DNA from: a virus
Length of the DNA: 30,625 nt
Virus record (IMG/VR): IMGVR_UViG_3300024515_000265
Span: 1-30,625 of that record
Direction: 5' to 3' (one strand)
Shown here piece by piece: positions 7 to 24,107 of the stretch. A model generated the notes under the pieces. It was not told where the DNA came from. It saw nothing but the letters and a program-made list of their open reading frames with translations, and did no database searches. How positions within the stretch are numbered: the stretch's first letter is position 1; every line of letters starts with the position of its first letter. The position numbers were made by a program, and so were the translations under genes.

Positions 7-539
7 TATTTTATAATCTCATCCTTGCCATATTGATCCCAATCTGTGAAGCGATCTCTTCCCAGAAGGTCCTGTAGGTTATGGCACCAAACCCCAGGAT
101 TAGTTGCTTTAAAATCTTTGTCGTCGATCTTCAATGTAGCATTATAACCGAGTTGATTAATATAAGGTAATTTTACACTAATCTGCGGAATAAATCTACG
201 CTTTTCGGTTAAACCGCTCTCGAGCAATCCTTCCGTTTCCTTAACATCAAAGTCAAGCGTACACCAGAAACCGTCTTCTGCATCTAGACAAACGTAGATC
301 ATATCTTCCCACGGACGCCAAGTTTCTACATCATTAACGCCATTAGTTTGGAAACTTTGATTAGCACCAAAATAGATATGCTTGCAGTTATGATTACGTG
401 CAAGTTCCATAATAACATATGGGTCGTGAACACCTACAACAAATAAGGTCTTCATTCCAAATGCAGGAGTGCGTTCAATCTCCACACCAGTGAAGAATGT
501 AATACCTTCGCTGACTCCGTCTGTGTAATCACGCTTCAT
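6..539 (-). CDS. Conserved phage protein of unknown function, 177 aa
   Basis: No family was recognised with certainty. The 177-residue protein has no signal peptide or membrane segment and reads as a compact soluble enzyme-like protein: the N-terminal third resembles a small alpha/beta unit (hydrophobic LFVVGV near residue 32, then a helix and IYFGANQSF near 55-63), followed by alternating polar/hydrophobic strands and a Trp/Cys-containing segment near the C-terminus (GVWCHNL). The start ATG overlaps the stop of the upstream gene (ATGA) and has an AAGGAAA ribosome site. It lies in the same minus-strand run as the DpdA-like gene, and the next gene starts on its stop codon. A link to 7-deazaguanine chemistry is only a guess from position. 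Confidence 0.75.
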   Translation of the reverse strand: MKRDYTDGVSEGITFFTGVEIERTPAFGMKTLFVVGVHDPYVIMELARNHNCKHIYFGANQSFQTNGVNDVETWRPWEDMIYVCLDAEDGFWCTLDFDVKETEGLLESGLTEKRRFIPQISVKLPYINQLGYNATLKIDDKDFKATNPGVWCHNLQDLLGRDRFTDWDQYGKDEIIK

Positions 540-1102
540 TCATTTTCCTTAAAGTCAATAACATTGCCATCTTCGTCGGCTTGGATAATACGACGATAAC
601 CGTTTTCGCCTTCAATCACAATAGGACCCCAAATCCACATTTCGCTATCACTAGAAGACCAATCTCTGCTTTCTAGTGCATCGTAATAGCCATCTTCTTC
701 CATTGCTTCTTCAATTTCTGCTTGCTCATCTTCGTCAATGTCATCTGGCCATTCTACGTCTGCCCAACAACCGTCAAAGGTTGATTCGAGCTCAACTTCT
801 TCAATATTATTATAGTAGCAGTTGTTAATATCTATGCTGTCTTTAGATCCATCACCGCCTGGTACATAATCAAACTCAAACTTTGGCGGGTTTCCATCGT
901 TAGTATAAACAATCCAAGATCCTCCACGCCAACCAGTTTTGTGAATAATTTCTTGTCCGTCTTTAGTAAAGTGTTCGTGTTCTTCAATAGACTTTTTGTA
1001 GTATGTACTTACAGTCCAAGCGGTAAGTTCTTTCTTTTCTGTAGTTTCGTCGCTACTATATGATGGTGAGGTATCGTCTGATGAAAAAGGCCAAGTTGCC
1101 AT
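536..1102 (-). CDS. Acidic hypothetical protein, 188 aa
   Basis: Function unknown. The protein is strongly acidic, with Asp/Glu runs between about residues 115 and 145 and a Ser/Asp-rich N-terminus, and contains many aromatic residues (Trp and Tyr pairs). There is no membrane segment or signal peptide. The acidic, DNA-mimic-like composition is common in small phage proteins that bind host factors, but nothing in the sequence proves this. The gene is preceded by a consensus sigma-70 promoter lying in the upstream small gene, so it is probably expressed early and strongly. Its stop overlaps the next start by 4 bases. Confidence 0.75.
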   Translation of the reverse strand: MATWPFSSDDTSPSYSSDETTEKKELTAWTVSTYYKKSIEEHEHFTKDGQEIIHKTGWRGGSWIVYTNDGNPPKFEFDYVPGGDGSKDSIDINNCYYNNIEEVELESTFDGCWADVEWPDDIDEDEQAEIEEAMEEDGYYDALESRDWSSSDSEMWIWGPIVIEGENGYRRIIQADEDGNVIDFKENE

Positions 1103-1104
1103 AA

Positions 1105-1275
1105 TTATTTTTCCTTTTTAGCAAATAATCTTTTAATGGACTGAATTAAATTATAGTATCTAAAATGATAATTGTCAAGAAATGCTGAGCTCAAAAGAGG
1201 TTCTCTATGCGGACATCTTCCTTGATTCCAATCACAATTTGGTTGAATTTGTAAATTACAGGTTTGGCATTTCAT
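1105..1275 (-). CDS. Small cysteine-rich protein, 56 aa, possible zinc ribbon
   Basis: This short gene begins with ATG at 1275, overlapping the TGA of the preceding gene (ATGA), and ends with TAA at 1105, two bases before the next gene. The translation starts MKCQTCNLQIQPNCDWNQGR and then has CPH. Cys3-x2-Cys6, Cys14 and Cys21-x-His23 could bind one zinc ion; the remainder is a basic, aromatic tail (NLIQSIKRLFAKKEK). Small proteins with a similar DWxQGRCPH pattern occur in T4-like marine phages as far as I recall, with no known function. The perfect promoter for the next gene lies inside its coding sequence. Confidence 0.65.
   Translation of the reverse strand: MKCQTCNLQIQPNCDWNQGRCPHREPLLSSAFLDNYHFRYYNLIQSIKRLFAKKEK
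1150..1178 (-). promoter_or_regulatory. Consensus sigma-70 promoter
   Basis: On the minus strand the -35 box TTGACA (1178-1173) and the -10 box TATAAT (1155-1150) are separated by exactly 17 bases, a complete match to the sigma-70 consensus. It lies inside the 56-aa small gene and would start transcription near 1143, about 40 bases before the acidic 188-aa protein. This is expected for an early T4-like promoter read by unmodified host RNA polymerase. Confidence 0.8.
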
Positions 1276-1454
1276 TCTTCCAACCCCGCCTGTTTTGCCC
1301 TTAGCATTTCGATCTCATCTTTTAAAAAGAGTCGTTTCTTTTTAAGTTCGTGAATATTCTCTTCCCCAAATATTCCTGTTCTTTCCATATCGTCTACTTT
1401 TTTATCAAGCATACGATGTGCTTCTTCCAAGTGCTTAATTCTATTTTCGTACAT
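1272..1454 (-). CDS. Small DUF465/YdcH-like helical protein, 60 aa
   Basis: The ATG at 1454 was preferred over upstream alternatives because a GAGG ribosome site lies 6 bases before it and the HNH gene then ends just before it; a longer reading frame to 1523 would overlap that gene. The 60-residue protein is almost entirely charged alpha-helix. It contains RIKHLEEAHRMLDKKVDDME, then HELKKKRLFLKDEIEML, the pattern of the DUF465 (YdcH) family: two antiparallel helices with a conserved KKxxLxLKDEI segment. The role of this family is unknown. Its stop overlaps the start of the next small gene. Confidence 0.75.
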   Translation of the reverse strand: MYENRIKHLEEAHRMLDKKVDDMERTGIFGEENIHELKKKRLFLKDEIEMLRAKQAGLEE

Positions 1455-1455
1455 A

Positions 1456-1857
1456 TTAAACCTCTTCAAATAAAGTTGTGAACATCTTATTTGTATAAGA
1501 ATATTTCTTTTTGTGATCTCCAAACATTTTACTTTTTTCGTTATGGCAATTTGCGCACAAGATTTTTAAATTGTCTGAAGATGTATTGCCTTTATCACCG
1601 TCGTGATGATCTATGGTAAGACTTCTATACGGATCTCTACAAAACCATCCAAGGTATCCTGATTGGTTTTCGCATCCTTTTGATTGCATCCATTCGTCCA
1701 CTTCAAACCTTAACACAGTTCTATGAAGATTGCAAAAAGTTTTCCATTTCCAGGTAGGTGTACCATCTTTTTTAACATAACCTTTATGGTACCCTACTTG
1801 AGTATTGCAACCGGGTAAACTACATTTAGGAGCGTGATTCCTAGATAGAGATCGCAT
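1456..1857 (-). CDS. HNH homing-type endonuclease, 133 aa
   Basis: The HNH core is visible at residues 80-108: LTIDHHDGDKGN, then SSDNLKILCANCHNEKS. The His pair near 84-85, the Asn near 96-97 and the terminal HN form the beta-beta-alpha-metal nuclease site, and Cys101/Cys104 with the N-terminal CxxxxC (12, 17) are likely zinc ligands. Such proteins nick or cut double-stranded DNA. Small free-standing HNH genes in T4-like phages are usually mobile homing endonucleases inserted between core genes. Here it sits 8 bases downstream of the DpdA-like gene. There is no obvious intron nearby, since both flanking genes appear intact. It could instead have a packaging or restriction-like role. Confidence 0.85.
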   Translation of the reverse strand: MRSLSRNHAPKCSLPGCNTQVGYHKGYVKKDGTPTWKWKTFCNLHRTVLRFEVDEWMQSKGCENQSGYLGWFCRDPYRSLTIDHHDGDKGNTSSDNLKILCANCHNEKSKMFGDHKKKYSYTNKMFTTLFEEV

Positions 1858-1865
1858 TTTAAGCC

Positions 1866-3422
1866 TTATTCAACTTTTAAATTATCCAACTCTTCGTCTT
1901 CTCTGTCGTCAGTCCAAGGAACTTCAACAGTTCCATCTTCTTTGACTTCATCAAAAAGACTATCTACAATGTTAGTAACACCACCACGTAGACGAGCACC
2001 TTCTAAGTTTTGTAAAAATCCAAGACGTTCTGCTTCAGCAATCATTTCAAATGCTTCTTCTTTAGTCTTGAGTTCAAACAATTCTTCAACAAATCTATTA
2101 AAATACAGAATGTTGCGCGGTACCCATTCTGAGTATTCATCACTTTTATCTGCATCTTTAACCTTGCGCCAGTGTCTCCAATCTGGTCTGTGACTTGCAT
2201 ATTCAATATCTGCTAGATTATTAGATCTTTGAACAGCACGAATGTGACATTCAACATTATGACCCATCATTAGAGCATAGGCAAAACTATCCCAAGAAGT
2301 TTTACCTTCTTTACCAATCTTGTTTAACATTCCCGGTGCATAGTGGCAAATATCAGCGACTGTAAGTCTGCGACCAAAATCGGATTCGAAAGGAAAAGGT
2401 ATATCGTGCCGTCTGGCAAGACTCTTATTGTCCGGGGCTTTATCCATGATAACAGAGAATCGCTTATTGGTATGTTGGGCGTTAGTATATACCAATCCGT
2501 GAGCTGTTGCGATGAAAGGTGATGCGCAGTCAAAGGAAATTGTGAAGTTTTCATTTACGTGCTTTCTAATTTGACGCTGAATGCTTGTTAGATAACAAGC
2601 CCAGTCCAACTGTGCAGTACCCAAGAAGTGCATCCAATCCTTGCCTTCTAGCATACCGTCAAACCGCATAGTAATCAGTCTACGTAGTGTAATAGGCATC
2701 TTACACATATTAGCACCACCCATAGCCCATCCTTCTGCGGCTCTGTCTCCGTACTTGCTAGTATCGGAGTATTCTTTTACACCCTGGTACCACGCTTCTG
2801 CGTTTTCCCAGTTACTACCCTGTAAAACATTTAACAGTTTAGTACCGCCATCTTTTGCACCTAAACGATTTTGAATAAAATATTCATTGTTAAATCTTGT
2901 TTTATCTAAACAATCTTGAAATGATTTTAAACCTGTCTTTGGACTATGAATATGGTCACAAGCCCAGGTCGGAACGTCTAGCATCATTGACCAATCAGCA
3001 GTAACATCTAGCCAAGTTAAGATCTTTTCGCGAGTTTTATTTGCTTCTGAGCCTTCAAAATTTTGCCAGTCGAACTTAATAACACCTTTACCGATCTGAT
3101 AACCGCCTGAATCACCTAATATCATAGTAGCGTTACGATCACGTTGTTGAATCATAGATTCTTGTGTGATACTTTTATTAATGTCTAACTGTGCGTGACC
3201 TGCTGAATACAACGCATATTTGTAATAAAAATAGCCTTGCTCTGGATTCAAGAAGTTCATACCTTCAATGCCGCGATCAAATCCTTGAGGAACGCGATCG
3301 TCTGGAATAAATTTTTCTAAACGTTGTTTTGCAACGTATGTAGAATAGAAAGAACTAATAGCAGGTAAGTAAACCGCATAGTCTTTCTGTAATGGTGTTA
3401 AATCAACTGGTTGTTGTTTCAT
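1866..3422 (-). CDS. dpdA: DpdA-like 7-deazaguanine DNA transglycosylase (TGT superfamily), 518 aa
   Basis: This protein belongs to the tRNA-guanine transglycosylase superfamily. It shows GDSGGYQ (residues 103-109, the general-acid Asp motif), LDVP (148-151), LQG (200-202), AMGG (233-236), HFLG (265-268) and FDCASPF (297-303), whose Asp298 matches the catalytic nucleophile in the TGT FDC motif. The usual TGT zinc cluster (CxCxxC followed by His) is not evident. Phage members of this type are called DpdA and exchange guanine in DNA for a 7-deazaguanine such as preQ0, protecting against host restriction. A QueC-like preQ0 enzyme at the other end of the window supports this. The gene overlaps its upstream neighbour by 20 bases and lies beside gp45 and gp43. 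Activity on tRNA rather than DNA cannot be excluded. Confidence 0.82.
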   Translation of the reverse strand: MKQQPVDLTPLQKDYAVYLPAISSFYSTYVAKQRLEKFIPDDRVPQGFDRGIEGMNFLNPEQGYFYYKYALYSAGHAQLDINKSITQESMIQQRDRNATMILGDSGGYQIGKGVIKFDWQNFEGSEANKTREKILTWLDVTADWSMMLDVPTWACDHIHSPKTGLKSFQDCLDKTRFNNEYFIQNRLGAKDGGTKLLNVLQGSNWENAEAWYQGVKEYSDTSKYGDRAAEGWAMGGANMCKMPITLRRLITMRFDGMLEGKDWMHFLGTAQLDWACYLTSIQRQIRKHVNENFTISFDCASPFIATAHGLVYTNAQHTNKRFSVIMDKAPDNKSLARRHDIPFPFESDFGRRLTVADICHYAPGMLNKIGKEGKTSWDSFAYALMMGHNVECHIRAVQRSNNLADIEYASHRPDWRHWRKVKDADKSDEYSEWVPRNILYFNRFVEELFELKTKEEAFEMIAEAERLGFLQNLEGARLRGGVTNIVDSLFDEVKEDGTVEVPWTDDREDEELDNLKVE

Positions 3423-3771
3423 AATCTCTCGCTAAATGTGCTGTAAGTTCTACTCTTGTCTTTGCCTGTTCTAATTGGTCTAATGCAATGCGAACTGCTT
3501 CGTTAGTTGTTGCTAACTTGTACCATTCTTCTTCTTGCTTCATACGTTTAATAGCCCAGTCAATGGCTTTTTCTGCGTCATTATTTAGGCCTACGTTTGC
3601 AGACCCTGCATAAATCTTCATCCACGTATGGCCATCAAATACTTCCATATCGCTGCCGTTTAATCTCAACATACCTTGAGAAGGATTTGACATATTAGAT
3701 GACACATAGGGAAGCGAACTTCCCCCTGCGGCATACATATGTTTGCTGGAACTACTAACGTTATTAATCAT
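3403..3771 (-). CDS. Conserved phage protein, 122 aa, unknown function
   Basis: The N-terminal half is Ser/Asn/Gly-rich and includes a short pattern seen in phage surface proteins (GMLRLNGSDMEVFDGHTWMK near residues 33-52: a product-plus-'EVFDGxxW' beta-hairpin repeat). The C-terminal half is a charged helix from about residue 62 to 115 (AEKAIDWAIKRMKQEEEWYK). No enzymatic motif is present. The start is at 3771, directly on the stop of gp45, and the C-terminus overlaps the DpdA-like gene. Its place in the replication cluster suggests co-expression with gp45. It is not recognisably gp62, which might be expected near here. Confidence 0.75.
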   Translation of the reverse strand: MINNVSSSSKHMYAAGGSSLPYVSSNMSNPSQGMLRLNGSDMEVFDGHTWMKIYAGSANVGLNNDAEKAIDWAIKRMKQEEEWYKLATTNEAVRIALDQLEQAKTRVELTAHLARDYETTTS

Positions 3772-4508
3772 TAGGCCGCCTGTGCTGGAATAATGTATTT
3801 GTATGTTGCCAATCCGCTGTCTAGAGTGATTTGGATAGCACCTTCATTTGACAAACTCATCTTTGTGTTGTTGACATCGGCAATCTTAAGAATGCTCAAG
3901 ATTGGAAGCACCGGCCAAGTCCAACCACGATCCAGTTTACCTGCAACGTTCTGTGCAAAAATAAACTCACCGCCGTGTGTGCTTGCATCACCAAAGATAA
4001 ATTTCAAATTGCCACCGTCAGTTTTTGCAAGGAATGTTGGATGTTCGCTGTTAGCACCAGCTTGGAAATTAAAACGCTGTACAGCAGCAACGGTTGGCTC
4101 TAGTTCAACATCCCACTTAACACCGCGGAACTTAACAGTCTTCATCTTTTCGTTGATGATTTCCTGATTCATAAAGCGATAGTCGTTGCGGAAATCGCCG
4201 TCTTTGTTTTCAAAGTGGATACCGACGGGGATAGTTTCACCATTACGTTCTGCTGATGTGATAGTAATTTTTGCATCATCCTTGTATTCGCTGCCATCTA
4301 ACAAATATTTCAACTTGTTAAGTTGCGGCATACCAAATACACCAATCATATCTGGATAAGGATTAGCAGTTTCTGCATCCATAATAACTGAACGGTCATC
4401 TGCCATTGAGTTAATTGTAGTCTTTTCTTCTGTGCCTGTAACTTTGACTGTGGTTAAAAAGCCTAGGTTTTGTGTATGTGACACAATGTCTTGTAAAATG
4501 TCTTTCAT
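3771..4508 (-). CDS. 45: DNA polymerase sliding clamp, gp45-like, 245 aa
   Basis: The protein fits the T4 gp45 clamp in length (T4 protein is 228 aa), in position next to gp43 and in sequence style. The N-terminal helix is MKDILQDIVSHTQNLGFL, the internal segments resemble clamp beta strands, and it ends in the clamp-like strand ATYKYIIPAQAA. The clamp is a trimeric ring that tethers gp43 to DNA and, in T4, activates late transcription. A GGAGAT ribosome site precedes ATG 4508, and a sigma-70-like promoter lies in the 61-base gap after gp43, so it has its own start of transcription in addition to read-through. Confidence 0.85.
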   Translation of the reverse strand: MKDILQDIVSHTQNLGFLTTVKVTGTEEKTTINSMADDRSVIMDAETANPYPDMIGVFGMPQLNKLKYLLDGSEYKDDAKITITSAERNGETIPVGIHFENKDGDFRNDYRFMNQEIINEKMKTVKFRGVKWDVELEPTVAAVQRFNFQAGANSEHPTFLAKTDGGNLKFIFGDASTHGGEFIFAQNVAGKLDRGWTWPVLPILSILKIADVNNTKMSLSNEGAIQITLDSGLATYKYIIPAQAA

Positions 4509-4532
4509 TTAGATATCTCCATGTATATTAAG

Positions 4533-4561
4533 ATTATATTTAGATCGTGAATAAAAATCAA
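4533..4561 (-). promoter_or_regulatory. Sigma-70-like promoter for gp45
   Basis: On the minus strand TTGATT (4561-4556) and TATAAT (4538-4533) are 17 bases apart. Transcription would start near 4526, giving an 18-base leader with GGAGAT before ATG 4508. The box starts 9 bases after the gp43 stop codon, in the only gap of the replication cluster. Confidence 0.65.
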
Positions 4562-4569
4562 CCTTGAAA

Positions 4570-7239
4570 TCACTCAAAATCAAATAATTTGCTAAAGGTA
4601 TTATCATTTCTAGTAGAACTGATATCCCATTCTAGTACTCCAATTAAGTTTTCTAATTTTTCATCGATAACAGTAGTTTCCATCAAACCGTCATCGAATG
4701 GTAAATCTTTAAACCATTGAGGTAAACGTAGTTCGTCTACAGGATATGCTACTGACGTATATCCCATAGGATTGTCTTTTAATTTGCAGACAATGACTTT
4801 TGCTCCGTCGACGATTTGCATTGAGTATTTGTCGTCGTAGAGGCGTTTGAGCGTATTCCAATTAAGGCTTGCTCTAACATGACCAGGCATATTTGCCTTG
4901 CCAGCTTTCTTCTCTTTACTGGCGTATTCTGTAATGTTGTTTGCACGTTTTGGTGATCCTTTCTCCCATCCTGGGCGTGTTTTAAAATCTGTTCTAAAGT
5001 CTGTAATAAACTCTAGTACTTCTTCTTGCGGAGCTCCATTAAGAACTTTTGTAAGTACGTCACTTAAAAAGTCTTGGATAACAACCGGGGTATCTGACCT
5101 TTTGAGGTCAAGCCCCATTGCTTTGATCTTGCCTGGCTTGCCATCGACGTCTGCCCGCTTTCCTTCTTTGTCGTAGTAGAGCACGGCATATCGTTTCTTT
5201 GTGATGAATAGTCCTTTGGAAGCAACAATCTCGCGACCTGCTTTGATGACCTCTCCTCGAGATTTTGGAACGTGGAAGGCATCTTGCATGAATTTGACGA
5301 AAGTACCATTTACAGTTTCTCCTATAGTGTCATAAAGTTCAACAACGTTTTCCTTATTCCAAGGAACAAGGCCCTTCTCAATGTCTTTCTTCAGCGTTGA
5401 ATAAGCTGAAAAATAACAAGAGTCTGTGTCACCGTAGATCACTGATTTGCCAACGTGATCATATTCTCCGGTAATAATTTCATTAACTTTACTTGCCATA
5501 TGTTTGGCAATCTGACGTCCTGTAAGCGTAGTACTTTGACCAATTCTATTATCAAAGAAACGGCAACCTGGGTTAAGAATAGCACCGTACAAACTGTTTA
5601 GGTTAATCTTCTTAACTAGTTGTCGTTTATCCCAGTATTCTTCTTCAACAGTATTACCTGCCTTGATGCATTCTTTAAGTTTGGCCTGCATCTCTTTACG
5701 TTCTTTGTACCAACGTGCTAACAGACCTGGAATGATACCTTCTACTTCATAGGTAAAGATAGTTCCATTTGCTGAGATCATCCAAGGTTGGTTGCTTTCA
5801 AAGATTAAATCATAGATTTGTGCGGCCGACAGGGTATCACTACCGCCGCCTTCCCAGTCGATGGTAATTTCTCGACCAACTTCTTTGTTCATAACAGAAG
5901 TATATTCTAATGATCCAAATATTCCTTCCCAAGCAGCAGCAAATGATTTACCCTTGCCCATTTCTGTTTCAAGATGTGCTTTGGTACCATCTGCACGTAG
6001 TTGTCCTACAATAGTTTCCGGGCCCATATTCAGCGCACGAATCGCAGACGGATACAGTGAGTTAATATCTAATGAGCCAATCCACTCGTGGATGCCTTTC
6101 TTTGGATATGCAACATAAGCGCCAGCGGCCTGTGTGTCTCCTTGCTCCTCCATCTTTTTACGATTAGGAACAATCATACCACGACGGTGAGCTTCATTAA
6201 TAATGGCTTGTTCAGTTACGGCAACAGCACCCATTGTTGTCTGTAGCAGAACTGTGTTTTCGTGTGCAATCTTGTTGGACAGGTCTAGGAATTTTAGTTT
6301 CTTATCTAGTTTGTCAAGTAGTGCAGTATCTTGTCTGTTATATTCAATAAACTTTTTAAAGTCATTGTTATATAATTGATCAAGCGTTCCCTCGTAGGCA
6401 ACCTTCTTTTCACCAACTTCCATTTCACCGATGGCATCTAATCGATAGGTGTGTCTTTCTTCATATGTGTATTTTCGATATAATTCTAAATAGTCCATAT
6501 GCACACGACCGATAAGATCATATGTAACAGCAGTCTTTCCGTACTTTTCGTATTCACGTTTCTTAGGATAACAATCCCACAAACAGAAACGTTTAGTATC
6601 CTCTTTGCTTAGAACTTTAATAACACGATTTACAGTATACGGAATATCAAAACCTTCACTGTTCCAACCAGACAACACATCAGCATCTTGAATAAGATCT
6701 AAAAATGTATCCAACATATCTGCTTCGTTGTCAAATAACATCGTGTTAGGAAATTCTTCGACAGCCTTTTGAGCTTCTTCCATTGACATTGTCTTTGGAG
6801 GAATAGCAAGACATACAAGTGTGTCCAACCATTGCAGGTGAACAGCAATTGCGGTAATTGGCATAAATGCATCATCAGGCGAAGCGTAGCCACGTTCTGG
6901 ATCAAAATCTACTTCAATATCGAAGTAGGCTGCATTTAGTTTCGGCGCATCAATGTTTAGATAATGATCTTCTAAACAACGAAAGATTGGATTAATATCT
7001 GATTCGTATAGTTTTTTGTTAGAATGAATTGCAAGTTCTTTGCGAAGTTCTTTTACATTCTTACAACTTACACGGCTTAGTGGTTCACCCTTGATAGATT
7101 GAAATTTACCTTTAGGGTCATAGTAATAGAAAAGATGTTTGGCAGGATAATCCTTAAAATGCCTTTCACCTTTATCATTTCGCTCGACGACACGAATAGT
7201 ATCGTCCTCGCGATCATAGAAAGCGTCAACGTAACTCAT
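4570..7239 (-). CDS. 43: Family B DNA polymerase, gp43-like, 889 aa
   Basis: This is the replicative polymerase with proofreading exonuclease. Exo I is YFDIEV (105-110), Exo II is WNSEGFDIPY (192-201) and Exo III is EYNRQDTALLDKLD (299-312). Polymerase motif A is SLDINSLYPS (389-398), motif B is KKINLNSLYGA (543-553) and motif C is YGDTDS (602-607), so all catalytic acids are present. The last residues (TFSKLFDFE) match the clamp-binding tail of T4 gp43. Length is close to T4 (898 aa). The ATG at 7239 was chosen over one 12 codons upstream because it has an AGGAG site and the upstream region forms an operator-like hairpin. It is probably regulated by gp43 binding to that hairpin. Confidence 0.95.
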   Translation of the reverse strand: MSYVDAFYDREDDTIRVVERNDKGERHFKDYPAKHLFYYYDPKGKFQSIKGEPLSRVSCKNVKELRKELAIHSNKKLYESDINPIFRCLEDHYLNIDAPKLNAAYFDIEVDFDPERGYASPDDAFMPITAIAVHLQWLDTLVCLAIPPKTMSMEEAQKAVEEFPNTMLFDNEADMLDTFLDLIQDADVLSGWNSEGFDIPYTVNRVIKVLSKEDTKRFCLWDCYPKKREYEKYGKTAVTYDLIGRVHMDYLELYRKYTYEERHTYRLDAIGEMEVGEKKVAYEGTLDQLYNNDFKKFIEYNRQDTALLDKLDKKLKFLDLSNKIAHENTVLLQTTMGAVAVTEQAIINEAHRRGMIVPNRKKMEEQGDTQAAGAYVAYPKKGIHEWIGSLDINSLYPSAIRALNMGPETIVGQLRADGTKAHLETEMGKGKSFAAAWEGIFGSLEYTSVMNKEVGREITIDWEGGGSDTLSAAQIYDLIFESNQPWMISANGTIFTYEVEGIIPGLLARWYKERKEMQAKLKECIKAGNTVEEEYWDKRQLVKKINLNSLYGAILNPGCRFFDNRIGQSTTLTGRQIAKHMASKVNEIITGEYDHVGKSVIYGDTDSCYFSAYSTLKKDIEKGLVPWNKENVVELYDTIGETVNGTFVKFMQDAFHVPKSRGEVIKAGREIVASKGLFITKKRYAVLYYDKEGKRADVDGKPGKIKAMGLDLKRSDTPVVIQDFLSDVLTKVLNGAPQEEVLEFITDFRTDFKTRPGWEKGSPKRANNITEYASKEKKAGKANMPGHVRASLNWNTLKRLYDDKYSMQIVDGAKVIVCKLKDNPMGYTSVAYPVDELRLPQWFKDLPFDDGLMETTVIDEKLENLIGVLEWDISSTRNDNTFSKLFDFE

Positions 7240-7243
7240 TTTT

Positions 7244-7267
7244 CTCCTATGCAATTTACGGCTTGCA
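7244..7267 (-). promoter_or_regulatory. Hairpin before gene 43, candidate autoregulatory translational operator
   Basis: On the minus strand TGCAA (7267-7263), an 8-base loop GCCGTAAA and TTGCA (7254-7250) form a 5-bp hairpin followed immediately by TAGGAG and the gp43 ATG. The T4 gp43 operator likewise has a 5-bp stem and an 8-base loop upstream of its ribosome site and is bound by gp43. The geometry matches; the loop sequence does not. Confidence 0.5.
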
Positions 7268-7314
7268 AATACCAAAAATGCGGTTTATGGCCCAGCCTAC
7301 CATCTATCTTATAT

Positions 7315-7605
7315 TTAACTAATTAGCATTCTTACCAGCCCAACACTATCAATGGTGGTGAGCAGGATGTAGTTAGCCAGCATCCCAAAAGATTTCCTAG
7401 TCCAAGCAGCCCAAGCATACATAGCACAACCAGTGATCCAAATAGGATATAAAGCAAGGAGTGGAGGATTGGGTACTGTGACAGCCATTGTGATGCTACA
7501 TCCAATTGAGATAGCCCAAGCAAGGAGCTCAATAATAAAACGTAAACGGTTAGATGCCCAATCATCTTTGATCCATTGTATAGTTGGTTGAAAATATTCT
7601 ATCAT
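7315..7605 (-). CDS. Small inner-membrane protein, 96 aa
   Basis: Three hydrophobic stretches are visible: about residues 24-44 (IIELLAWAISIGCSITMAV), 48-66 (LLALYPIWITGCAMYAWAA) and 74-94 (MLANYILLTTIDSVGLVRM), with an amphipathic N-terminus containing conserved-looking aromatic residues (YFQPTIQWIKDDW). It is probably a polytopic inner-membrane protein. No transporter or enzyme motif was recognised. The start ATG overlaps the stop of the DsbA-like gene (ATGA), so the two are translated together, and a short gap separates it from gp43. Confidence 0.8.
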   Translation of the reverse strand: MIEYFQPTIQWIKDDWASNRLRFIIELLAWAISIGCSITMAVTVPNPPLLALYPIWITGCAMYAWAAWTRKSFGMLANYILLTTIDSVGLVRMLIS

Positions 7606-7862
7606 TCGGGTAAACGTTTGGTAACGCCCAAAATCATTTCAATTTCATCCCACTCTTCTTCGTGAGACTTCCAATTGTCTTTATGTGCAATCTTAATTGC
7701 TTTATTAATAATGCTAGGTTTAACTTGTAGCTCTTCTGCTACGGCCTTAACGGTTTCTTTTAGGCCTTCTTGGAGATCTTCAATTTCGCGCAATACATTT
7801 CCACCTTCGTTAATGAGACGCTCAAGTTTAGCCTTTTCTTCTGGACCGTACATTTTTGCCAT
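7602..7862 (-). CDS. dsbA: DsbA-like double-stranded DNA binding protein, 86 aa
   Basis: The start at ATG 7862 (MAKMYGPEEK) has a perfect AGGAG site 7 bases upstream; a longer reading frame to 7916 would run through the promoter and into the terminator stem. The small helical, charged protein resembles T4 DsbA (89 aa): a VAEELQVKPSIINKAIKIAHKDN helix-turn-helix-like segment (about residues 40-62) followed by an acidic helix. T4 DsbA binds double-stranded DNA near late promoters. The gene is first in its transcript, directly after a terminator and a sigma-70-like promoter, which suggests early expression leading into gp43. Similarity is moderate, so the DsbA name is provisional. Confidence 0.65.
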   Translation of the reverse strand: MAKMYGPEEKAKLERLINEGGNVLREIEDLQEGLKETVKAVAEELQVKPSIINKAIKIAHKDNWKSHEEEWDEIEMILGVTKRLPE

Positions 7863-7887
7863 AGTATTCTCCTGTATATAAAAGTAT

Positions 7888-7916
7888 ATTATATAGCCAC
7901 AAAAAAAGCCAGTCAA
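7888..7916 (-). promoter_or_regulatory. Sigma-70-like promoter embedded in a terminator
   Basis: TTGACT (7916-7911) and TATAAT (7893-7888) on the minus strand are 17 bases apart. The -35 box is formed by the hairpin of the preceding terminator and the T-tract serves as part of the spacer. The predicted transcript begins near 7881, about 19 bases before the DsbA-like ATG, with AGGAG in the leader. Confidence 0.75.
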
Positions 7917-7932
7917 CCTATGACTGGCTTTT
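7901..7932 (-). terminator. Intrinsic terminator after the 292-aa virion-type gene
   Basis: A perfect 12-bp stem (7932-7921 with 7915-7904, core GCCAGTCA/TGACTGGC) with a 5-base loop is followed on the minus strand by seven Ts (7907-7901). It sits 19 bases after the stop of the upstream gene and ends transcripts coming from the late block before the DsbA-like gene. Confidence 0.88.
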
Positions 7933-7950
7933 CTACACCTTTTGGTTAAA

Positions 7951-8829
7951 TTACTTTTGATCTTCGCTTAGTACGTCATACATTTCAAATACGCCGCCGT
8001 TACGTTCGTAAATTAAACCTGCGTATAGATCTGCTTTCATACCTTCGCCTAGTTTAGCAACAGCAACACGTTGAGCCCAGTTGAACAATTCTGTATCAAT
8101 TGCATCAATTTGTTGTTGACCGCCGCTTTCTTGAACCAACTGAACCATTTGCTTAAATGTTAGTTTTTGTTCTACACTTTCAGCAACAACTTTCTTAGAA
8201 GTTTTAACAGATTCGTTTTTCTTGCCACCAAAGTATTTTGCCTGCTTGTCGCTCATACCTTTCTTGCCATCTTTCTTGTTACCGCCTTTTTCGGCAGCAG
8301 CTTTTTTCATTGGCTCTTTCTTGTCACCGTCTTTGTCAATGTCTAAGAAATCTGGCTTTGCACCTTCGTCCATTTTCTTTTCTTTCTTGGCTTTTTTATC
8401 TTCTTTATCAGACTTTTTAGCCTCAACCATTTTTAGGAATTTAGACTTAAATTGTTCTGGATCTACAGATTCTTTAGCAGACTTACGAGCTTTTTCTTTA
8501 CGCTTCTTGTCGTCCTTGTCATCTGAACCTGGATCGTATTCAAACTTGTCACGAGTGTGTTTTACACCTGTTGCAGTTTTTGTTAAAGTACCTGTTGAAG
8601 TTTTCTTTGTATCGCCAGTTTTAGCATCAGCGTCAAAGCCTTCTTCAACTTCTTCTTTCTTTTCTTCTTTTGCTTTCTTTGCTTCAGCAATGTAAGAAGA
8701 TTGTCCAGCTAAAACACGCAATTCTGCGTCTTCGTTTAACTGTACAGATTTTGGTAATTGAGGAGCAGCAGGAGTTTCGATCTTGCCGTCGATGCTCTCA
8801 ATTTTAGTAATTAGTGATTTAAAGTCCAT
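7951..8829 (-). CDS. Lys/Glu-rich virion-type protein, 292 aa
   Basis: The middle of the protein (about residues 50-215) is extremely charged and repetitive (KK, DK, EK runs) and probably disordered. It includes a DxDxDG-like acidic loop, FLDIDKDGDKKEP (about 160-172), typical of calcium-binding motifs and common in T4-like phage virion proteins. Short structured ends flank this: MDFKSLITKIESID at the start and a helical C-terminal domain (about 225-292) ending in YDVLSEDQK. A late promoter GATAAATA lies 27 bases before the start and a TAGGA site precedes it; a terminator follows. Likely an internal or structural head protein, by analogy and context only. The gene is read last in its block. 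Confidence 0.7.
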   Translation of the reverse strand: MDFKSLITKIESIDGKIETPAAPQLPKSVQLNEDAELRVLAGQSSYIAEAKKAKEEKKEEVEEGFDADAKTGDTKKTSTGTLTKTATGVKHTRDKFEYDPGSDDKDDKKRKEKARKSAKESVDPEQFKSKFLKMVEAKKSDKEDKKAKKEKKMDEGAKPDFLDIDKDGDKKEPMKKAAAEKGGNKKDGKKGMSDKQAKYFGGKKNESVKTSKKVVAESVEQKLTFKQMVQLVQESGGQQQIDAIDTELFNWAQRVAVAKLGEGMKADLYAGLIYERNGGVFEMYDVLSEDQK

Positions 8830-8856
8830 AATAAAAGTCCTAAAAGGTGTATACTT

Positions 8857-8864
8857 TATTTATC
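8857..8864 (-). promoter_or_regulatory. T4-type late promoter (GATAAATA)
   Basis: GATAAATA on the minus strand, 27 bases before the ATG at 8829 and overlapping the stop codon of the upstream gene. One of seven copies found in the window, all just upstream of minus-strand starts. Confidence 0.65.
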
Positions 8865-9105
8865 TTTTAATGAAGTTGCCTTCGCCAAAGATATTAGTTT
8901 TCATATTTAATGCGTTATCTGTTGGCTTTTGTTTCTTGGGTTTAGGCTGCGGAGGAGCCTTTGTGCCAGATTTTCCCGGGCTACCAGTATAGCTTGTTTT
9001 TCCACGAGCTTTTCCTGGGCTAATATGCGGATTTGCAACGGTAGCAATATTACCTGCTGAAGTAGCACCTGCTGTGGCTGTTTCTAAAAGTTCACTTATT
9101 TTCAT
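8860..9105 (-). CDS. Small Pro/Lys/Gly-rich protein, 81 aa
   Basis: Function unknown. The protein begins with a short amphipathic peptide (MKISELLETATAG), like those of its neighbours, followed by a Gly/Ala/Ser part and a Pro/Lys-rich basic tail (GTKAPPQPKPKKQKP) that is probably disordered and could bind DNA. A GATAAATA late promoter ends 5 bases before ATG 9105, so its transcript may have almost no leader; no good ribosome site is visible. It lies between a GH19 enzyme and the charged 292-aa protein and is probably a minor or internal virion component. Confidence 0.6.
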   Translation of the reverse strand: MKISELLETATAGATSAGNIATVANPHISPGKARGKTSYTGSPGKSGTKAPPQPKPKKQKPTDNALNMKTNIFGEGNFIKR

Positions 9106-9110
9106 ATTAA

Positions 9111-9118
9111 TATTTATC
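9111..9118 (-). promoter_or_regulatory. T4-type late promoter (GATAAATA)
   Basis: GATAAATA overlaps the stop of the GH19 gene and ends 5 bases before ATG 9105. The predicted start of transcription falls on or beside the start codon, giving a leaderless or nearly leaderless message. Confidence 0.55.
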
Positions 9119-9839
9119 GCATAGCTAGCTGGAATGCTTGATGTTTTTCTTTACGTTGATCTAGATGTTTCATTCCTGGATTAATTGGTTTAGTTACAGA
9201 TTTTGTATCTTTAAAACTATCAACTTTATTAGCAACACGGGTTTTCCAATACCATACTGCAACTTTGGCAGCAACTTCAGGTTTTTCTACAAGCTCTGGA
9301 TGTTTTTCTAAAGGAAGACCTAGAGCTTCTCCGGCTTTTTTATAATTTTCTCGTCCAGTTAACTGAATATAACCACGTCCCTTATATTTGGCACCGTCCC
9401 CTGCTTGTTTGTTTCCTAAAATTTTTGCCTTGCGAGGAGCGTATCTAGGATCGTATTTTTTAAAATCTAAAGATCCACCAATTTCTTTCATATGTTTAAA
9501 GTCTAATGTTTCGTGAGCACATTGAGCTAGAAACGCAGCAAGCTCTGGCCCTTTTATACCTGCTTTCTCAGCAGCCTTTTTAAGGTACACTTCGTGCGGA
9601 TTTCCTGTAACAGATTTAGCAACATCTTTTTTGCTAATTGTTTTTAACGGATCTACTTTTTTGGTATGTTGTTGTTTTGCCTGTTGTACAATTGCAGGTT
9701 TATCGTTTTGGTTTTTTACTTTGCCTGCCTCTGCACTAGGACTGTGCCCTAATGCGGCAGCACCTAAAGCAGCACCGGCTACCCAGTCTTTCCAACCTTC
9801 CTCTAATTCTTGAGGAGTAATAAACTCTGCTGCTCTCAT
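9114..9839 (-). CDS. GH19-type muralytic enzyme (lysozyme-like), probably virion-associated, 241 aa
   Basis: The C-terminal two thirds (about 85-235) is a glycoside hydrolase 19/lysozyme-like domain: FLAQCAHET (103-111) with the catalytic-type Glu110, and YKGRGYIQLTGRENY (152-166). It would cleave peptidoglycan. The N-terminus has a short amphipathic peptide (MRAAEFI), an Ala/Gly-rich helix (AGAALGAAALG) and a Lys/Gln-rich linker, unlike the plain endolysin at 18687. The start overlaps the stop of the upstream gene. Its location among virion-type genes suggests a particle-borne enzyme used during entry, separate from the lysis endolysin; this is inference. Confidence 0.8.
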   Translation of the reverse strand: MRAAEFITPQELEEGWKDWVAGAALGAAALGHSPSAEAGKVKNQNDKPAIVQQAKQQHTKKVDPLKTISKKDVAKSVTGNPHEVYLKKAAEKAGIKGPELAAFLAQCAHETLDFKHMKEIGGSLDFKKYDPRYAPRKAKILGNKQAGDGAKYKGRGYIQLTGRENYKKAGEALGLPLEKHPELVEKPEVAAKVAVWYWKTRVANKVDSFKDTKSVTKPINPGMKHLDQRKEKHQAFQLAMR

Positions 9840-10030
9840 ACTTGACTAAAGGGATTAATTTTTTCGTCGGAGTCAATGCTTTGTTTTTCTGGATATACTA
9901 GATACGTGTCTACACCAGCAATACCTCCCATAAACATTCCTTCTTTCATTTTATGAATAGGATCGTTGGGATCTAAGACGCAGTCTTCTTCACTGGTTTG
10001 TACATTATATGTTACACGATATTGTTTCAT
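9836..10030 (-). CDS. Hypothetical protein, 64 aa
   Basis: Function unknown. The 64-residue protein has one predicted strand-rich N-terminal part ([20 protein letters not shown]), a Gly/Met-rich centre ([11 protein letters not shown]) and an acidic polar tail. Its start and stop overlap its neighbours by 4 bases, supporting a real, coupled gene between the Fe-S carrier and the GH19 enzyme. No motif was recognised. Confidence 0.65.
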
Positions 10031-10350
10031 ACAGCAAAACTACTCCCACATCCACAGGTTGTTTGAGCATTTGGATTTTTAATTACAAATTGACTGCCCA
10101 TTAACTCTTCTTTATAATCTATGACAGCACCTTGTAGGTATTGCATACTCATAGAATCAACAAGAACTTTAAAATTTTCTAAAGGAATTTCGAAATCATC
10201 TTCGTTTTGTTCCTCGTCAAATGTAAATCCATAACTGAAACCAGCACAGCCTCCGCCTTGTACAAAGGTTCGAAGAGCTAGTTTAGGATTGTTTTCATCA
10301 ATCAATAAATCTACGATTTTACTTTTAGCTGATTCAGTTATCTCAATCAT
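10027..10350 (-). CDS. erpA: A-type iron-sulfur carrier (IscA/ErpA/HesB family), 107 aa
   Basis: The protein has the complete A-type carrier signature: Cys35 in [12 protein letters not shown] and the C-terminal pair Cys99/Cys101 in TTCGCGSSF, with the usual length of about 107 residues. It delivers Fe-S clusters to target enzymes. It closely follows ErpA/IscA; which of these cannot be decided by eye. It is an auxiliary metabolic gene in a phage, sitting between virion-type genes and overlapping the gene on either side, so it is expressed with them. Possible targets are host or phage Fe-S enzymes such as radical SAM proteins, but none is visible in this window. Confidence 0.92.
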
Positions 10351-10943
10351 TATGCAGTAGCCTTTTCACCTGTTCTAGATACTTCCCATTTCTTGCCAGT
10401 CTGTGCAGTTTTCTTACGGCACATATCTTGTAATCTACGAAGCTGAGCCATTTCTCTGTAATCGTCGGCATATGTTCCTTGACCTTGAAATACTTTCCAT
10501 TTCTTGCCGTTAATGTAGATAGCAAAGTTGTTTGGAGGTTCTGTATTACCTTCGTCCCAGTCGTCTTCTCTATTTCTACGTCCAAATCCGCTTACGCTAC
10601 TATCATAGTCTCTTTGATAAGCATCACGTCCAAAACCTGCTTCTGCCATACCTTTTTGCTTTGCTTCTTTTTCTAGGTCTGCCTTGCGTTGAATAATGGC
10701 CTGTTTAATTTCAGGATCTTTTCCGGCAATTGGATCCATTTGTAGGTCTTGTAGGGCTTTGCGTTTTGCTTGAAGGTCATCTTTATTGCGAAGTTCAGTT
10801 TCATCGACTTTATTCTTGTGCTTAACATCACCTTGCTTTTGTGCTTTCTTTTTATCTTTGTGTGCGCCGGCACCGCTAGTTTTTTGATTCTTAGCTACAA
10901 AGTTTCTTGGTTTACTTGTTGGTATAATATCTTTTGCTCTCAT
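10350..10943 (-). CDS. Lys-rich virion-type protein, 197 aa
   Basis: The protein begins with a short peptide ([15 protein letters not shown]) similar to its neighbours and continues with a very basic, probably disordered region (about 15-105). It ends in a small folded-looking domain with [17 protein letters not shown] near 140-156 and KWEVSRTGE near the end. No enzymatic motif is present. It starts 4 bases inside the nucleotidyltransferase gene and its stop abuts the Fe-S carrier start. It is probably a head or tail structural or packaged protein; that rests on composition and context. Confidence 0.7.
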
Positions 10944-11914
10944 GACGACCTCTTTTGTTTTGGACCCTTACGTTCCTTCCATTTTTTATCTGTCGAACAC
11001 CAATAGCGTCCGTATCCTTCCTCAATGCTGTCAATCATAGGATCGATACCTCTACTACGTATTCCGCCTTTCTTACGAATTTTTGCAAGCTCTTCTAAAG
11101 CATGACGAATTTGTTCAACATTCATTTTTAATTCATCAAATTGTCTTACCATAGTCTGCCATTCGCCTGGGCTAGCACCATCAACTCTACTGGCTAAATC
11201 TTTGATTTGACCCGCTGCTCTTAACATTCTATATTTAAGTTTAGCAGGATTAGCTTTGTTGTGACTATGAATCATAGGATCCATTGGATCAGCAGGATCT
11301 AATTCGATAGGTGCTTCTGAAATACTTTCGGTAATTTTCATACCTTTACGAACAGCAACAAATAAAGGTTTAGCAAGTTCCCCTGCACCTGTTGCTTCTT
11401 TAAATCCTTCAAAATCGTTATTGGCAGCGGCAGCTCTTGCTCCACTGGCACTTACACCAGCAACGCCTTCTGCACCATCTTCTCTATCTCCGCTTGATAC
11501 AAAATCTAGAACATCAAATTTATAGAAACCGTGTGCTTTACCTTCAACACCGTTGTATCCTTCTAACAATTTTTTCATATCTTCTAAACGATCACTACCT
11601 GCAACAAACGTAGCTGCATTATAGCCGTTATCATAAAGATAAGAAGCAACTTTTACAACTGTATTAAGACCGGCATTATCTACAACATCTTTAGCATATT
11701 CTGGAAACATTTCTTTAATAAACTTTATTTTAGTTCCATAATCTAAAGGATTCTTTTTAGCATCTTGACTTTGACTAACAAATATCTGCATATCTCCGCC
11801 CTGGGCTTTCATAGTATCTAATACCTGCTTATGGCCAATGGTAGGTGGATTCATTCTGCCAAAGCAAAATGTAACGTGTTTTGTTCCGCCTTCAAATAAT
11901 TCAAACAATAACAT
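10940..11914 (-). CDS. Nucleotidyltransferase-domain protein (NMNAT/cytidylyltransferase-like), 324 aa
   Basis: Residues 12-185 form a HIGH-type nucleotidyltransferase domain: GRMNPPTIGH (19-28, the ATP-binding T/HxGH motif), VAGSDR (104-109) and VSASGAR (154-160, equivalent of the ISxxxxR motif). Enzymes with this core transfer a nucleotidyl group to nicotinamide mononucleotide or small phosphates. A C-terminal extension of about 130 residues is helical and basic (LEELAKIRKKGG), unusual for metabolic enzymes, and the N-terminus (MLLFELFEGG) resembles the leading peptides of neighbours. T4-like marine phages carry similar proteins in structural regions. It overlaps both neighbours by one to four bases. 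The substrate is unknown. Confidence 0.75.
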   Translation of the reverse strand: MLLFELFEGGTKHVTFCFGRMNPPTIGHKQVLDTMKAQGGDMQIFVSQSQDAKKNPLDYGTKIKFIKEMFPEYAKDVVDNAGLNTVVKVASYLYDNGYNAATFVAGSDRLEDMKKLLEGYNGVEGKAHGFYKFDVLDFVSSGDREDGAEGVAGVSASGARAAAANNDFEGFKEATGAGELAKPLFVAVRKGMKITESISEAPIELDPADPMDPMIHSHNKANPAKLKYRMLRAAGQIKDLASRVDGASPGEWQTMVRQFDELKMNVEQIRHALEELAKIRKKGGIRSRGIDPMIDSIEEGYGRYWCSTDKKWKERKGPKQKRSS

Positions 11915-12249
11915 TACTTGTAATCGCCTTTTTCTATATGTTTTTCTTGTTCATCTGCAATGCGTTTGGCAAGATCGATTAATTTTTCTTTGGGGAATTT
12001 TTCTTCTTTATCTTTAATATCAAATTTATCGCAATAATGTCCTACTGCTGTTTCAATAGGTCTAATGTATATTTTAAATACGTGAGGATTACCCTTGTGT
12101 TCTCTATGTTTTTTAATGGCAGGGAAGAAGTGCTGATCTAAAATTCCTGTATCGTTGTCAATAAAGAACTTTAAATCGTCTAACCAGTCAATATCTTGCT
12201 GGTCGTCTTTTGGTGCACCAATAGGGCTAAACATTTCTTTCAATAACAT
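11914..12249 (-). CDS. Conserved phage protein, 111 aa
   Basis: Function unknown. The mostly helical, acidic protein starts with MLLKEMFSPIG, a short hydrophobic-acidic peptide like those of neighbouring genes, then contains a compact domain with WLDDLKFFIDNDTGILDQHF and HVFKIYIRPIE segments, and ends in a charged helix (LAKRIADEQEKHIEK). A late promoter lies 24 bases upstream and a hairpin overlaps the GGAAG ribosome site. The stop shares a base with the next start. Possibly packaged or virion-associated, judging by its neighbours. Confidence 0.72.
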   Translation of the reverse strand: MLLKEMFSPIGAPKDDQQDIDWLDDLKFFIDNDTGILDQHFFPAIKKHREHKGNPHVFKIYIRPIETAVGHYCDKFDIKDKEEKFPKEKLIDLAKRIADEQEKHIEKGDYK

Positions 12250-12272
12250 AGTATCTTCCGTAAGATGATACT
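12250..12272 (-). promoter_or_regulatory. Hairpin overlapping the ribosome site of the 111-aa gene
   Basis: Between late promoter and ATG 12249 the minus strand can fold as ATCTT-ACGG-AAGAT (5 bp, 4-base loop), extendable by AGT/ACT across a 3-base bulge, or alternatively as AGTATC/GATACT (6 bp). Both enclose the GGAAG ribosome site, so access of ribosomes may be controlled. Confidence 0.4.
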
Positions 12273-12273
12273 A

Positions 12274-12281
12274 TATTTATC
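12274..12281 (-). promoter_or_regulatory. T4-type late promoter (GATAAATA)
   Basis: CGATAAATATAG on the minus strand, in the 44-base gap between two genes, ends 24 bases before ATG 12249. The clear intergenic position makes it one of the best copies of the motif. Confidence 0.75.
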
Positions 12282-12293
12282 GAAAGTTTACTG

Positions 12294-12668
12294 TTAGCAA
12301 TTATAACGGACCGCAATAATTTGGCCGTCTTCGATGTGGTATTTTGCGCGAATAAACACAAATTTTCCGGTAATATTTGTGCTTCTATTAGAATTTGAGC
12401 TATCTAAATCAAACGTTTCTGTATGAACGTCAAACCAATCATTATCACCGGGGTGAAGTTCTAAACTTGCTTGTAAAGCAATAGTACCTACAAATCCCTC
12501 AGTATGAAACAAGACAGTATGTATTCCGCTGCCGTTTTTATAATATCCTGCGCCTCTGCTTTTATCGGAATAAAATACCGCATCTGCATCTGTGCCTGCA
12601 TCATAATCTCTGTTATATGCAGAATGCACACTGATATTTTCTAATAAATTAAAGGTTTCAAAGCTCAT
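12294..12668 (-). CDS. Beta-rich virion-type protein, 124 aa
   Basis: ATG at 12668 was chosen; a GTG one codon upstream is the alternative. After the leading peptide (MSFETFNLLENIS), the protein is rich in strands and aromatic residues and ends with GKFVFIRAKYHIEDGQIIAVRYNC, a pattern common in jelly-roll or immunoglobulin-like phage surface and collar proteins. A late promoter overlaps the stop of the upstream gene and ends 4 bases before the ATG. No enzymatic motif is present. It probably belongs to the particle, as a decoration or fibre-like component; confidence in the exact role is low. Confidence 0.7.
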   Translation of the reverse strand: MSFETFNLLENISVHSAYNRDYDAGTDADAVFYSDKSRGAGYYKNGSGIHTVLFHTEGFVGTIALQASLELHPGDNDWFDVHTETFDLDSSNSNRSTNITGKFVFIRAKYHIEDGQIIAVRYNC

Positions 12669-12671
12669 CAC

Positions 12672-15675: not shown

Positions 15676-15678
15676 TAT

Positions 15679-20588: not shown

Positions 20589-20603
20589 GATTTCTCCTAC
20601 TTG

Positions 20604-20611: not shown

Positions 20612-20673
20612 GAGATAATTTAATCATTACATATAACTTTTTCACGAAAATGTTAAATAAAAATGTGTTCGGT

Positions 20674-20702: not shown

Positions 20703-20732
20703 CCTAGCACTTAGAGGAGGGCTAACCTTAAT

Positions 20733-24105: not shown

Positions 24106-24107
24106 TA

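Follow-up and report, generated by a model that had tools for sequence, protein, structure and literature searches.

Which base, and in which nucleic acid, would be exchanged by the product of the gene at positions 1866 to 3422 (minus strand) of the virus record IMGVR_UViG_3300024515_000265? A preliminary description of this stretch, whose source record holds nothing beyond the 30,625-base fragment analysed here (the window), had read the gene as a DpdA-like DNA transglycosylase, with the catalytic landmarks of the tRNA-guanine transglycosylases (TGTs), that would place preQ0 or a derivative into phage DNA. Our results support an enzyme of DpdA type and TGT fold whose gene context is one of 7-deazaguanine and whose substrate is probably DNA, and we consider it quite likely that the gene (hereafter dpdA) encodes a DNA-guanine transglycosylase of a DpdA2-related branch within a 7-deazaguanine pathway. 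The DpdA reading is strong, a DNA substrate is likely, and a sugar on the inserted base, for which a neighbouring glycosyltransferase (GT) is the candidate enzyme, is a bold proposal. Homology, fold, invariant catalytic residues and synteny are computed results, from which we infer a 7-deazaguanine in DNA that may then receive a sugar.

The DpdA-like protein and its branch

The open reading frame (ORF) is real, being read on the minus strand from an ATG start into 518 residues, and the GDSGGYQ (D104), LQG (Q201-G202) and FDC (D298) motifs all lie where the preliminary description had placed them. The window protein as query gave 433 confirmed stretches in IMG/VR, and a sister sequence gave at least 600 (80 were kept from each search, and the two sets possibly overlap). 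Among phage records the family was matched in 13, namely 11 of the PA5oct group (PA5oct twice), Vibrio phage 2.275.O and Sinorhizobium phage Phosso, with identities to the window protein of ~42% for the PA5oct group and ~30% for the other two; viral_contigs, scanned with the proteins of PA5oct and 2.275.O, gave no match. These match counts across IMG/VR and phage records make the gene more than a product of chance.

The fold was assessed on an AlphaFold2 model built from a 28-row alignment (mean predicted local distance difference test (pLDDT) 68.4, predicted template modelling score (pTM) 0.76). The top PDB match in Foldseek is the TGT QTRT1/2 (E 2.0e-4), the sole match counted at E <= 0.001, and when the 1000 best Foldseek chains were realigned with VIA-align, all 50 listed rows were TGTs (Z 17.6-18.3), the best being 2ash_B (Z 18.3, root-mean-square deviation 4.6, 304 residues aligned). 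As modelled, the window protein has a TGT-type triosephosphate isomerase (TIM) barrel fold.

Eleven positions never vary across 175 aligned sequences, the window protein included: D104, S105, G106, G107, Q109, D149, G202, G236, H265, G268 and D298. Both catalytic aspartates of the TGT/DpdA enzymes, that of DSGG and the nucleophile, are thus present in 175 of 175. D104 (DSGGYQ; codon at 3111-3113, this and the following on the minus strand) aligns, via DpdA2, with D89 of Escherichia coli TGT, the general acid/base. D298 (SFDCASP; 2529-2531), the expected nucleophile, pairs with the SYD aspartate in the DpdA2 of Vibrio phage nt-1 (YP_008125322), and this residue is in turn matched by the aspartate of FDC in E. 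coli TGT, the nucleophile of that enzyme. D149 lies in an LDVP motif (2976-2978) and is likewise aspartate in 175/175, whereas in LQG (2817-2822) the glutamine is kept in 174 of the 175 and the glycine in all. The HFLG motif at residues 265-268 (2619-2630), in which H265, L267 and G268 are found in 175/175, aligns with HMLG of nt-1 DpdA2.

It is the comparison with known DpdA groups that places the family. A profile of 81 sequences (92% non-redundancy) aligned over its full length with 11 DpdA2 sequences (hhalign Prob 97.8, E 4.5e-12), for which four reversed-sequence controls gave E 0.07-0.18. With seven DpdA1 sequences no relation was detectable (hhalign E 0.45; hidden Markov model (HMM) E 0.37 or worse). 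In the HMM comparison with DpdA groups that had been proposed as a check, the family is related to DpdA2 and not detectably to DpdA1. The DpdA2 profile does match E. coli TGT (E 7.7e-6). Other comparisons were weaker: the 13-row profile had no match to nt-1 at E 1 and found nothing in Campylobacter phage CP220 (E 10) or in HVTV-1 (E 1), the deep profile scored nt-1 weakly (7.6 bits), and single-sequence comparisons gave E 0.0048 against nt-1 and E 0.13 against 9g. In a midpoint-rooted FastTree of 48 sequences, the DpdA2 sequences grouped apart from the others (label 1.0) and had long branches, with a label of 0.16 at the node joining all non-DpdA2 sequences and one divergent bacterial row outermost. 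Judged by these alignments and the tree, the window family is a distinct branch with clear profile homology to DpdA2, best called a sister of it. Further subfamilies, DpdA3 and DpdA4, were reportedly named by Cui et al. in 2023; the comparisons with CP220 and HVTV-1 served as partial checks on these.

Like the window family, the DpdA2 enzymes of nt-1 and its relatives carry TGT-type motifs in equal register (as seen in nt-1), lack the zinc cluster and lie in a 7-deazaguanine gene neighbourhood; they differ in that the window family sits on a separate long branch and that only 4 of 70 DpdA2 records have a GT match. The DpdA1 enzymes of 9g and CAjan share the function class, the missing CxCx2C motif and a dpdA position near clamp, polymerase and 7-deazaguanine genes. 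Their sequences, however, show no detectable relation, the 9g enzyme has 317 residues against 518 in the window, and these phages carry Gat-QueC or QueC and have no GT match. The tRNA TGTs (bacterial, archaeal and QTRT1) resemble the window protein in fold (Z ~18) and in the equivalents of D104, D149, Q201 and D298, but have a zinc cluster that the window family lacks, and no role in a tRNA pathway is indicated for the latter.

That the zinc cluster is missing had been noted before, and we confirm it for the family: none of 174 members contains CxCx2C or Cx(1-3)Cx(1-4)C, and E. coli TGT, the positive control, does carry CxCx2C. The suggestion that an uncommon branch may be defined by its lack of zinc is rejected, since CxCx2C is found in 0 of 7 DpdA1 and 0 of 11 DpdA2 sequences (0/18). 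The idea of a distinct branch itself holds; what marks it is its sequence and its glycosyltransferase, instead of zinc and position.

The gene block around dpdA

The left end of the window lies shortly beyond dpdA, and the surroundings of the gene were read on a 134,843-base contig (record G007), to which window positions 8-13422 align at 99.9% (locus L004) and positions 19812-30625 at 100% (L089). Past the left end of the window, L004 continues with o117, o129, the GT (14660-15730), FolE (PF01227, 130.8 bits), a cupin-like ORF, a phosphoribosyltransferase, two SGNH-like ORFs, a HIT protein and QueE (phrog_2076, E 7e-51), the cupin-like and SGNH-like labels being readings by eye. FolE and QueE are better corroboration of a 7-deazaguanine pathway than the QueC-like gene of the window, discussed below.

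The same block recurs in relatives. Among 162 loci, 79 have 6 kb of sequence downstream of dpdA and 147 have 3.5 kb upstream. A GT lies within 6 kb downstream in 78 of the 79 and FolE in 54; the order GT, FolE, QueE within 10 kb is seen in 64/79, and the GT precedes folE in every locus where both are seen. Many of these loci are near-identical, and after single-linkage clustering at 95% identity, 48 of the 49 clusters that extend 6 kb downstream had a GT, the exception being the L085 fragment. With 9 kb downstream (61 loci, L085 and L086 left out), o177, o129 and the GT are each found in 61, FolE in 59, the cupin in 55, QueE in 52, the phosphoribosyltransferase in 49, the HIT protein in 46 and an HNH endonuclease in 7. 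QueD (PF01242) is present in 7 of 19 IMG/VR records with a dpdA match, away from the dpdA block. In Vibrio phage 2.275.O, the dpdA homologue lies near genes annotated as QueF, a vitamin-uptake (YhhQ) transporter, QueC and FolE.

On the other side of dpdA, the preliminary description had placed the gene directly downstream of gp45 (clamp) and gp43 (polymerase), which is nearly right: a 122-residue ORF (3403-3771, minus strand) overlaps the dpdA start and intervenes, without a significant family and with a relative upstream in 28 of the 147 loci, i.e., not generally conserved. The putative sliding clamp (3771-4508, minus), a label taken from the preliminary description, has a relative within 3.5 kb upstream in 136/147 loci; its Pfam match is at chance level and its PHROGs family, phrog_12062, is one of unknown function. 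The polymerase (4570-7275, minus; gp43-type by the same earlier label) has a relative within the same distance in 145/147, and the PA5oct genes that it matches are annotated as DNA polymerase. In PA5oct the annotated polymerase is in two parts, separated by a putative Hef-like homing endonuclease (L082 5605-10831). The position beside the replisome genes had been suggested as a possible mark of an uncommon branch; that it is unusual is rejected in view of the gene order of 9g, where dpdA adjoins the clamp and polymerase genes too, and of CAjan, where one small ORF is in between. In phiSM and Dp-1 the clamp gene is within ~3 kb of dpdA.

Between dpdA and the GT lie the less familiar members of the block. 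The gene o177 (6-539, minus), a conserved partner of unknown function, has a homologue in 61/61 loci and another just upstream of DpdA2 in phage ACP17 (E 2.3e-15). The HNH endonuclease (1456-1857, minus; PF01844, 25.4 bits against a cut-off of 21.4) between dpdA and o177 is, with its 7 of 61 loci, accessory and outside the module. By eye, o129 (phrog_17812) shows the His/Glu motifs of 6-pyruvoyl-tetrahydropterin synthases, although it has no Pfam match to them and compares weakly with a QueD-like T-fold (hhalign E 0.086, reversed 0.39). DpdL is reported by Cui et al. (2023) to be a decarboxylase, and o129 may be linked to it. In Cellulophaga phage phiST an o129 homologue has QueD, QueE and FolE next to it, and the 24 kb displayed include no annotated QueC. 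The second gene after this homologue (L305 12813-13592) encodes a hypothetical protein in which HFLG and STDS resemble TGT motifs by eye, and which the DpdA profiles do not detect.

Two further genes were observed. The phosphoribosyltransferase between folE and queE (L004 17152-17643; downstream in 49 of the 61 loci) could salvage the guanine freed by base exchange, and an annotated xanthine-guanine phosphoribosyltransferase (XGPRT) belongs to the cluster of phage ZZ01. Window positions 10027-10350 hold a gene for iron-sulphur cluster biosynthesis (PF01521, E 1.3e-19).

The putative glycosyltransferase and the candidate inserted base

The model of the GT (pLDDT 85.7, pTM 0.83; best Foldseek E 2.1e-8) has a GT-B fold, with Z 22.3 to sucrose-phosphate synthase (6kih_A) and Z 22.0 to BshA (3mbo_B). 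An EX7E-type motif, which we take to be a mark of GT4 enzymes, is present in 93 of 94 sequences, where 17 of 111 GT ORFs had been skipped (no start found by rule, or cut); in a separate count one GT row (L236) was dropped. The retaining GT4 enzymes BshA and MshA thus resemble the neighbouring GT in fold and motif, and differ from it in sequence (9-12% identity in their rows).

Homologues of this GT are found in 20 of 50,697 phage records, and 16 of the 20 also hold either the window dpdA family (11 of the PA5oct group, and Phosso) or DpdA2 (ACP17 twice, X1 and ZZ01); seen from the other side, 12 of the 13 dpdA-family phage records have the GT. It lies directly after DpdA2 in ACP17 and directly before it in X1, and in ZZ01 the two are separated by one small ORF, an o129 homologue; in all three, FolE and QueE are near the pair. 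The GT of X1 scores above the cut-off for Glycos_transf_1 (45.5 against 26.4 bits), and that of ZZ01 does so narrowly (26.5). The other four records are weak matches (69 bits). The one inspected of these four is Xanthomonas phage PhiXhv-12, in which a PIG-L deacetylase separates the GT from Gat-QueC (168-171 bits), two genes away; the cluster (L293 498-9755) comprises a Leu/Phe-tRNA protein transferase, a GNAT protein, Gat-QueC, the deacetylase, the GT homologue and a GFO/IDH oxidoreductase, and may be a further elaborated 7-deazaguanine pathway. Salmonella phage 7-11 had no GT match and was left out of the QueC comparison below. As a side observation, Vibrio phage V07 (MT135025, 349 kb) matches both DpdA2 and DpdA1; either the record joins two genomes or the phage has both.

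Cellular genomes give a third context tying GT and transglycosylase to 7-deazaguanines. The dpdA family was matched on 20 bacterial and archaeal contigs, three of which appear to be phage sequence sorted into metagenome genomes and have the order polymerase, clamp, dpdA, o177, o129, GT. Of the other 17 (~29-38% identity), 16 bear alphaproteobacterial names, and in five of these (L311, L314, L321, L322 and L323) a GT is next to the dpdA relative. In all five, the only contigs covered by this check, a Vut_1 (YhhQ-type) protein adjoins the GT (PF02592, E 2e-7 to 3e-5; two of the five above the Pfam cut-off), YhhQ being described as the specific preQ0 transporter by Hutinet et al. (PMC6884629). 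A contig binned into an archaeal metagenome-assembled genome (L307) has QueD directly after dpdA. Some of the GT-bearing alphaproteobacterial contigs also show, by eye, integrase-like ORFs and a recurring ORF of 500-900 residues, three of which (one on L316) had no Pfam match.

As for the base, the preliminary description had built on a QueC-like enzyme at 29812 and concluded on preQ0 or a derivative. The ORF (29812-30405, plus strand) is real and its product is a QueC homologue, although a diverged one: a PP-loop enzyme with SGGLDS and QueC-type C-terminal cysteines, it matches PF06508 with 28.2 bits (cut-off 22), the best stretch covering only residues 142-190, phrog_1550 with E 1.3e-19, and canonical phage QueC by profile with E 2.2e-8 (reversed control 0.041), and it fails the NCBI equivalog TIGR00364 (22.6 bits against a cut-off of 150.3). 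Moreover, the QueC-like gene was found in just 4 of 24 records tested, some of them fragments and five of them outside the window dpdA family (ACP17, X1, ZZ01, nt-1 and 9g), and together with dpdA in three records outside those 24 (G011, G019 and G022). Its 28 bits compare with the 156-251 that canonical QueC reaches in 10 of the comparison phages, and it has been demoted from main support; Hutinet et al. set QueC singletons aside as ambiguous (PMC6884629). The inference to preQ0 is weakened, and preQ0, 7-amido-7-deazaguanine (ADG) and 7-carboxy-7-deazaguanine (CDG) are all candidates for the inserted base.

The distribution of canonical QueC, defined as 100 bits or more to PF06508, was compared with that of the GT. 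Canonical QueC was not found in any of 13 IMG/VR records with a GT (G001-G004, G007, G009 and G029-G035; many are fragments) nor in five of six named GT-positive phages (PA5oct, Phosso, ACP17, X1 and ZZ01), PhiXhv-12 being the one that has it, whereas 10 of 11 GT-negative phages used for comparison do carry it (nt-1, KVP40, pf16, 9g, CAjan, phiSM, Dp-1, HVTV-1, CP220 and 2.275.O), the eleventh, Moby, having 32.6 bits. Fisher's test on the named phages gave p 0.0014 without Moby and 0.0054 with Moby counted as lacking QueC, a result that is indicative only, as the comparison phages were chosen and not sampled.

Substrate, product and significance

In the proposed mechanism, a 7-deazaguanine base would be made from GTP by FolE, QueD and QueE; D298 would attack C1' of a DNA guanosine, guanine would be released and the base inserted, and the GT4-like enzyme would then glycosylate it. 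FolE and QueE genes are indeed downstream in relatives, and QueD, where found, is mostly elsewhere in the genome. Since polymerase, clamp, dpdA, o177, o129, GT, folE and queE form one block in relatives, the modification is probably timed with replication. That DNA rather than tRNA is the substrate appears very likely to us. A phage TGT that places 7-deazaguanine into tRNA would agree with the fold matches, which are solved tRNA TGTs, but is made highly improbable by the missing zinc cluster, by DpdA2 as the closest profile match and by the polymerase-linked gene order; in addition, the pathway phages analysed in Hutinet et al. encode no QueA, QueG or QueH (PMC6884629), although no search aimed at these genes was made here.

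The identity of the product is less certain. That the neighbouring GT4-like enzyme glycosylates the inserted base has, in our estimate, not quite an even chance. The end product could instead be a plain 7-deazaguanine (preQ0, ADG or CDG), in which case the GT would have a different role, for instance in surface glycans or virion glycosylation; phages often carry glycosyltransferases, and the window has its diverged QueC. Plain dPreQ0, dADG and dPreQ1 are, moreover, the main products measured in known DpdA phages (PMC6884629, PMC12028318); in the second of these papers, 15% of dG in vibrio phage 6E351A, which by name has a DpdA2 match in our phage scan, was changed, with a mass consistent with dPreQ1. 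We regard a plain product as a real possibility, short of an even chance. What speaks against it is the position of the GT, i.e., within 6 kb downstream of dpdA in 78/79 loci and before folE where both are seen, beside DpdA2 or one small ORF from it in ACP17, X1 and ZZ01, and beside dpdA relatives together with a Vut_1/YhhQ-type protein in five bacterial contigs. A glycosylated product would have a parallel in the DNA glucosyltransferases of phage T4, which add a sugar to a modified base after replication. The T4 enzymes act on hydroxymethylcytosine, whereas here the glycosylated base would be a 7-deazaguanine.

A different answer is that dpdA inserts the QueE product CDG itself, canonical QueC being missing, and that o129 and the GT then process it. 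The failure to find canonical QueC in most GT-positive records and phages, described above, speaks for this reading, and the phiST cluster, with o129 beside QueD, QueE and FolE and no QueC annotated, points in the same direction. We nevertheless find CDG insertion rather unlikely, as the window does have a diverged QueC, the host may supply preQ0, the YhhQ-type protein found with the GT in bacterial relatives suggests an imported base of preQ0 type, and PhiXhv-12 combines Gat-QueC with the GT (the choice of comparison phages, as said, limits the contrast).

Several observations weigh against a DpdA-type enzyme with a sugar-bearing product. The window protein has no match in the Pfam, PHROG or PADLOC families, a chance-level one in NCBIfam, and no significant PDB match by sequence, whether single or as the 13-row profile. 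PF01702 picks up no TGT in 37 records (9g included) and does not match the window protein; because it also misses the DpdA of 9g and nt-1, this last miss is uninformative for a DpdA. The family profile does not directly match the single E. coli TGT sequence (E 0.49), the pLDDT of the dpdA model is only 68.4, and the Foldseek rows under the top match are mostly other TIM-barrel proteins. Deletion in CAjan has proven DpdA1, whereas the proof for DpdA2 is indirect, nt-1 DNA having ~0.11% of G as dPreQ0 and less dADG and dG+ (PMC6884629). The near records G001 and G007, which are fragments, yielded no QueD. As for the sugar, the GT of the window group has no Pfam glycosyltransferase match by sequence and could have another target, and a base decarboxylated at C7 would offer no obvious handle for a sugar. 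PhiXhv-12 has the GT without a match to the window dpdA or DpdA2, Vibrio 2.275.O has dpdA without the GT, none is seen in the L085 fragment, the dpdA of Phosso lies far from its GT, and 12 of the 20 cellular contigs show no GT in the DNA covered (six of these extend ~8 kb to either side; the others are short or truncated). Literature searches, judged mostly by title, turned up no account of DNA that carries a glycosylated 7-deazaguanine, and no paper linking PA5oct with queuosine was found.

Taking both sides together, we tentatively propose, at rather less than an even chance, that a module widespread among phages, and with some relatives located on alphaproteobacterial contigs, combines DpdA2-related insertion, dedicated GT4-like glycosylation and tailoring by o129 to give a sugar-bearing 7-deazaguanine in DNA. 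The dpdA family adds a large group to the phage DNA-guanine transglycosylases that the family libraries tried (Pfam, PHROGs, NCBIfam and PADLOC) do not recognise. Bulky sugar bases can keep restriction enzymes and Cas nucleases from acting, and type IV restriction in turn targets such bases. Phages with both dpdA and the GT have already been isolated and sequenced (Phosso and the PA5oct group), and if the proposal is true, glycosylated 7-deazaguanine would be a new candidate DNA base.

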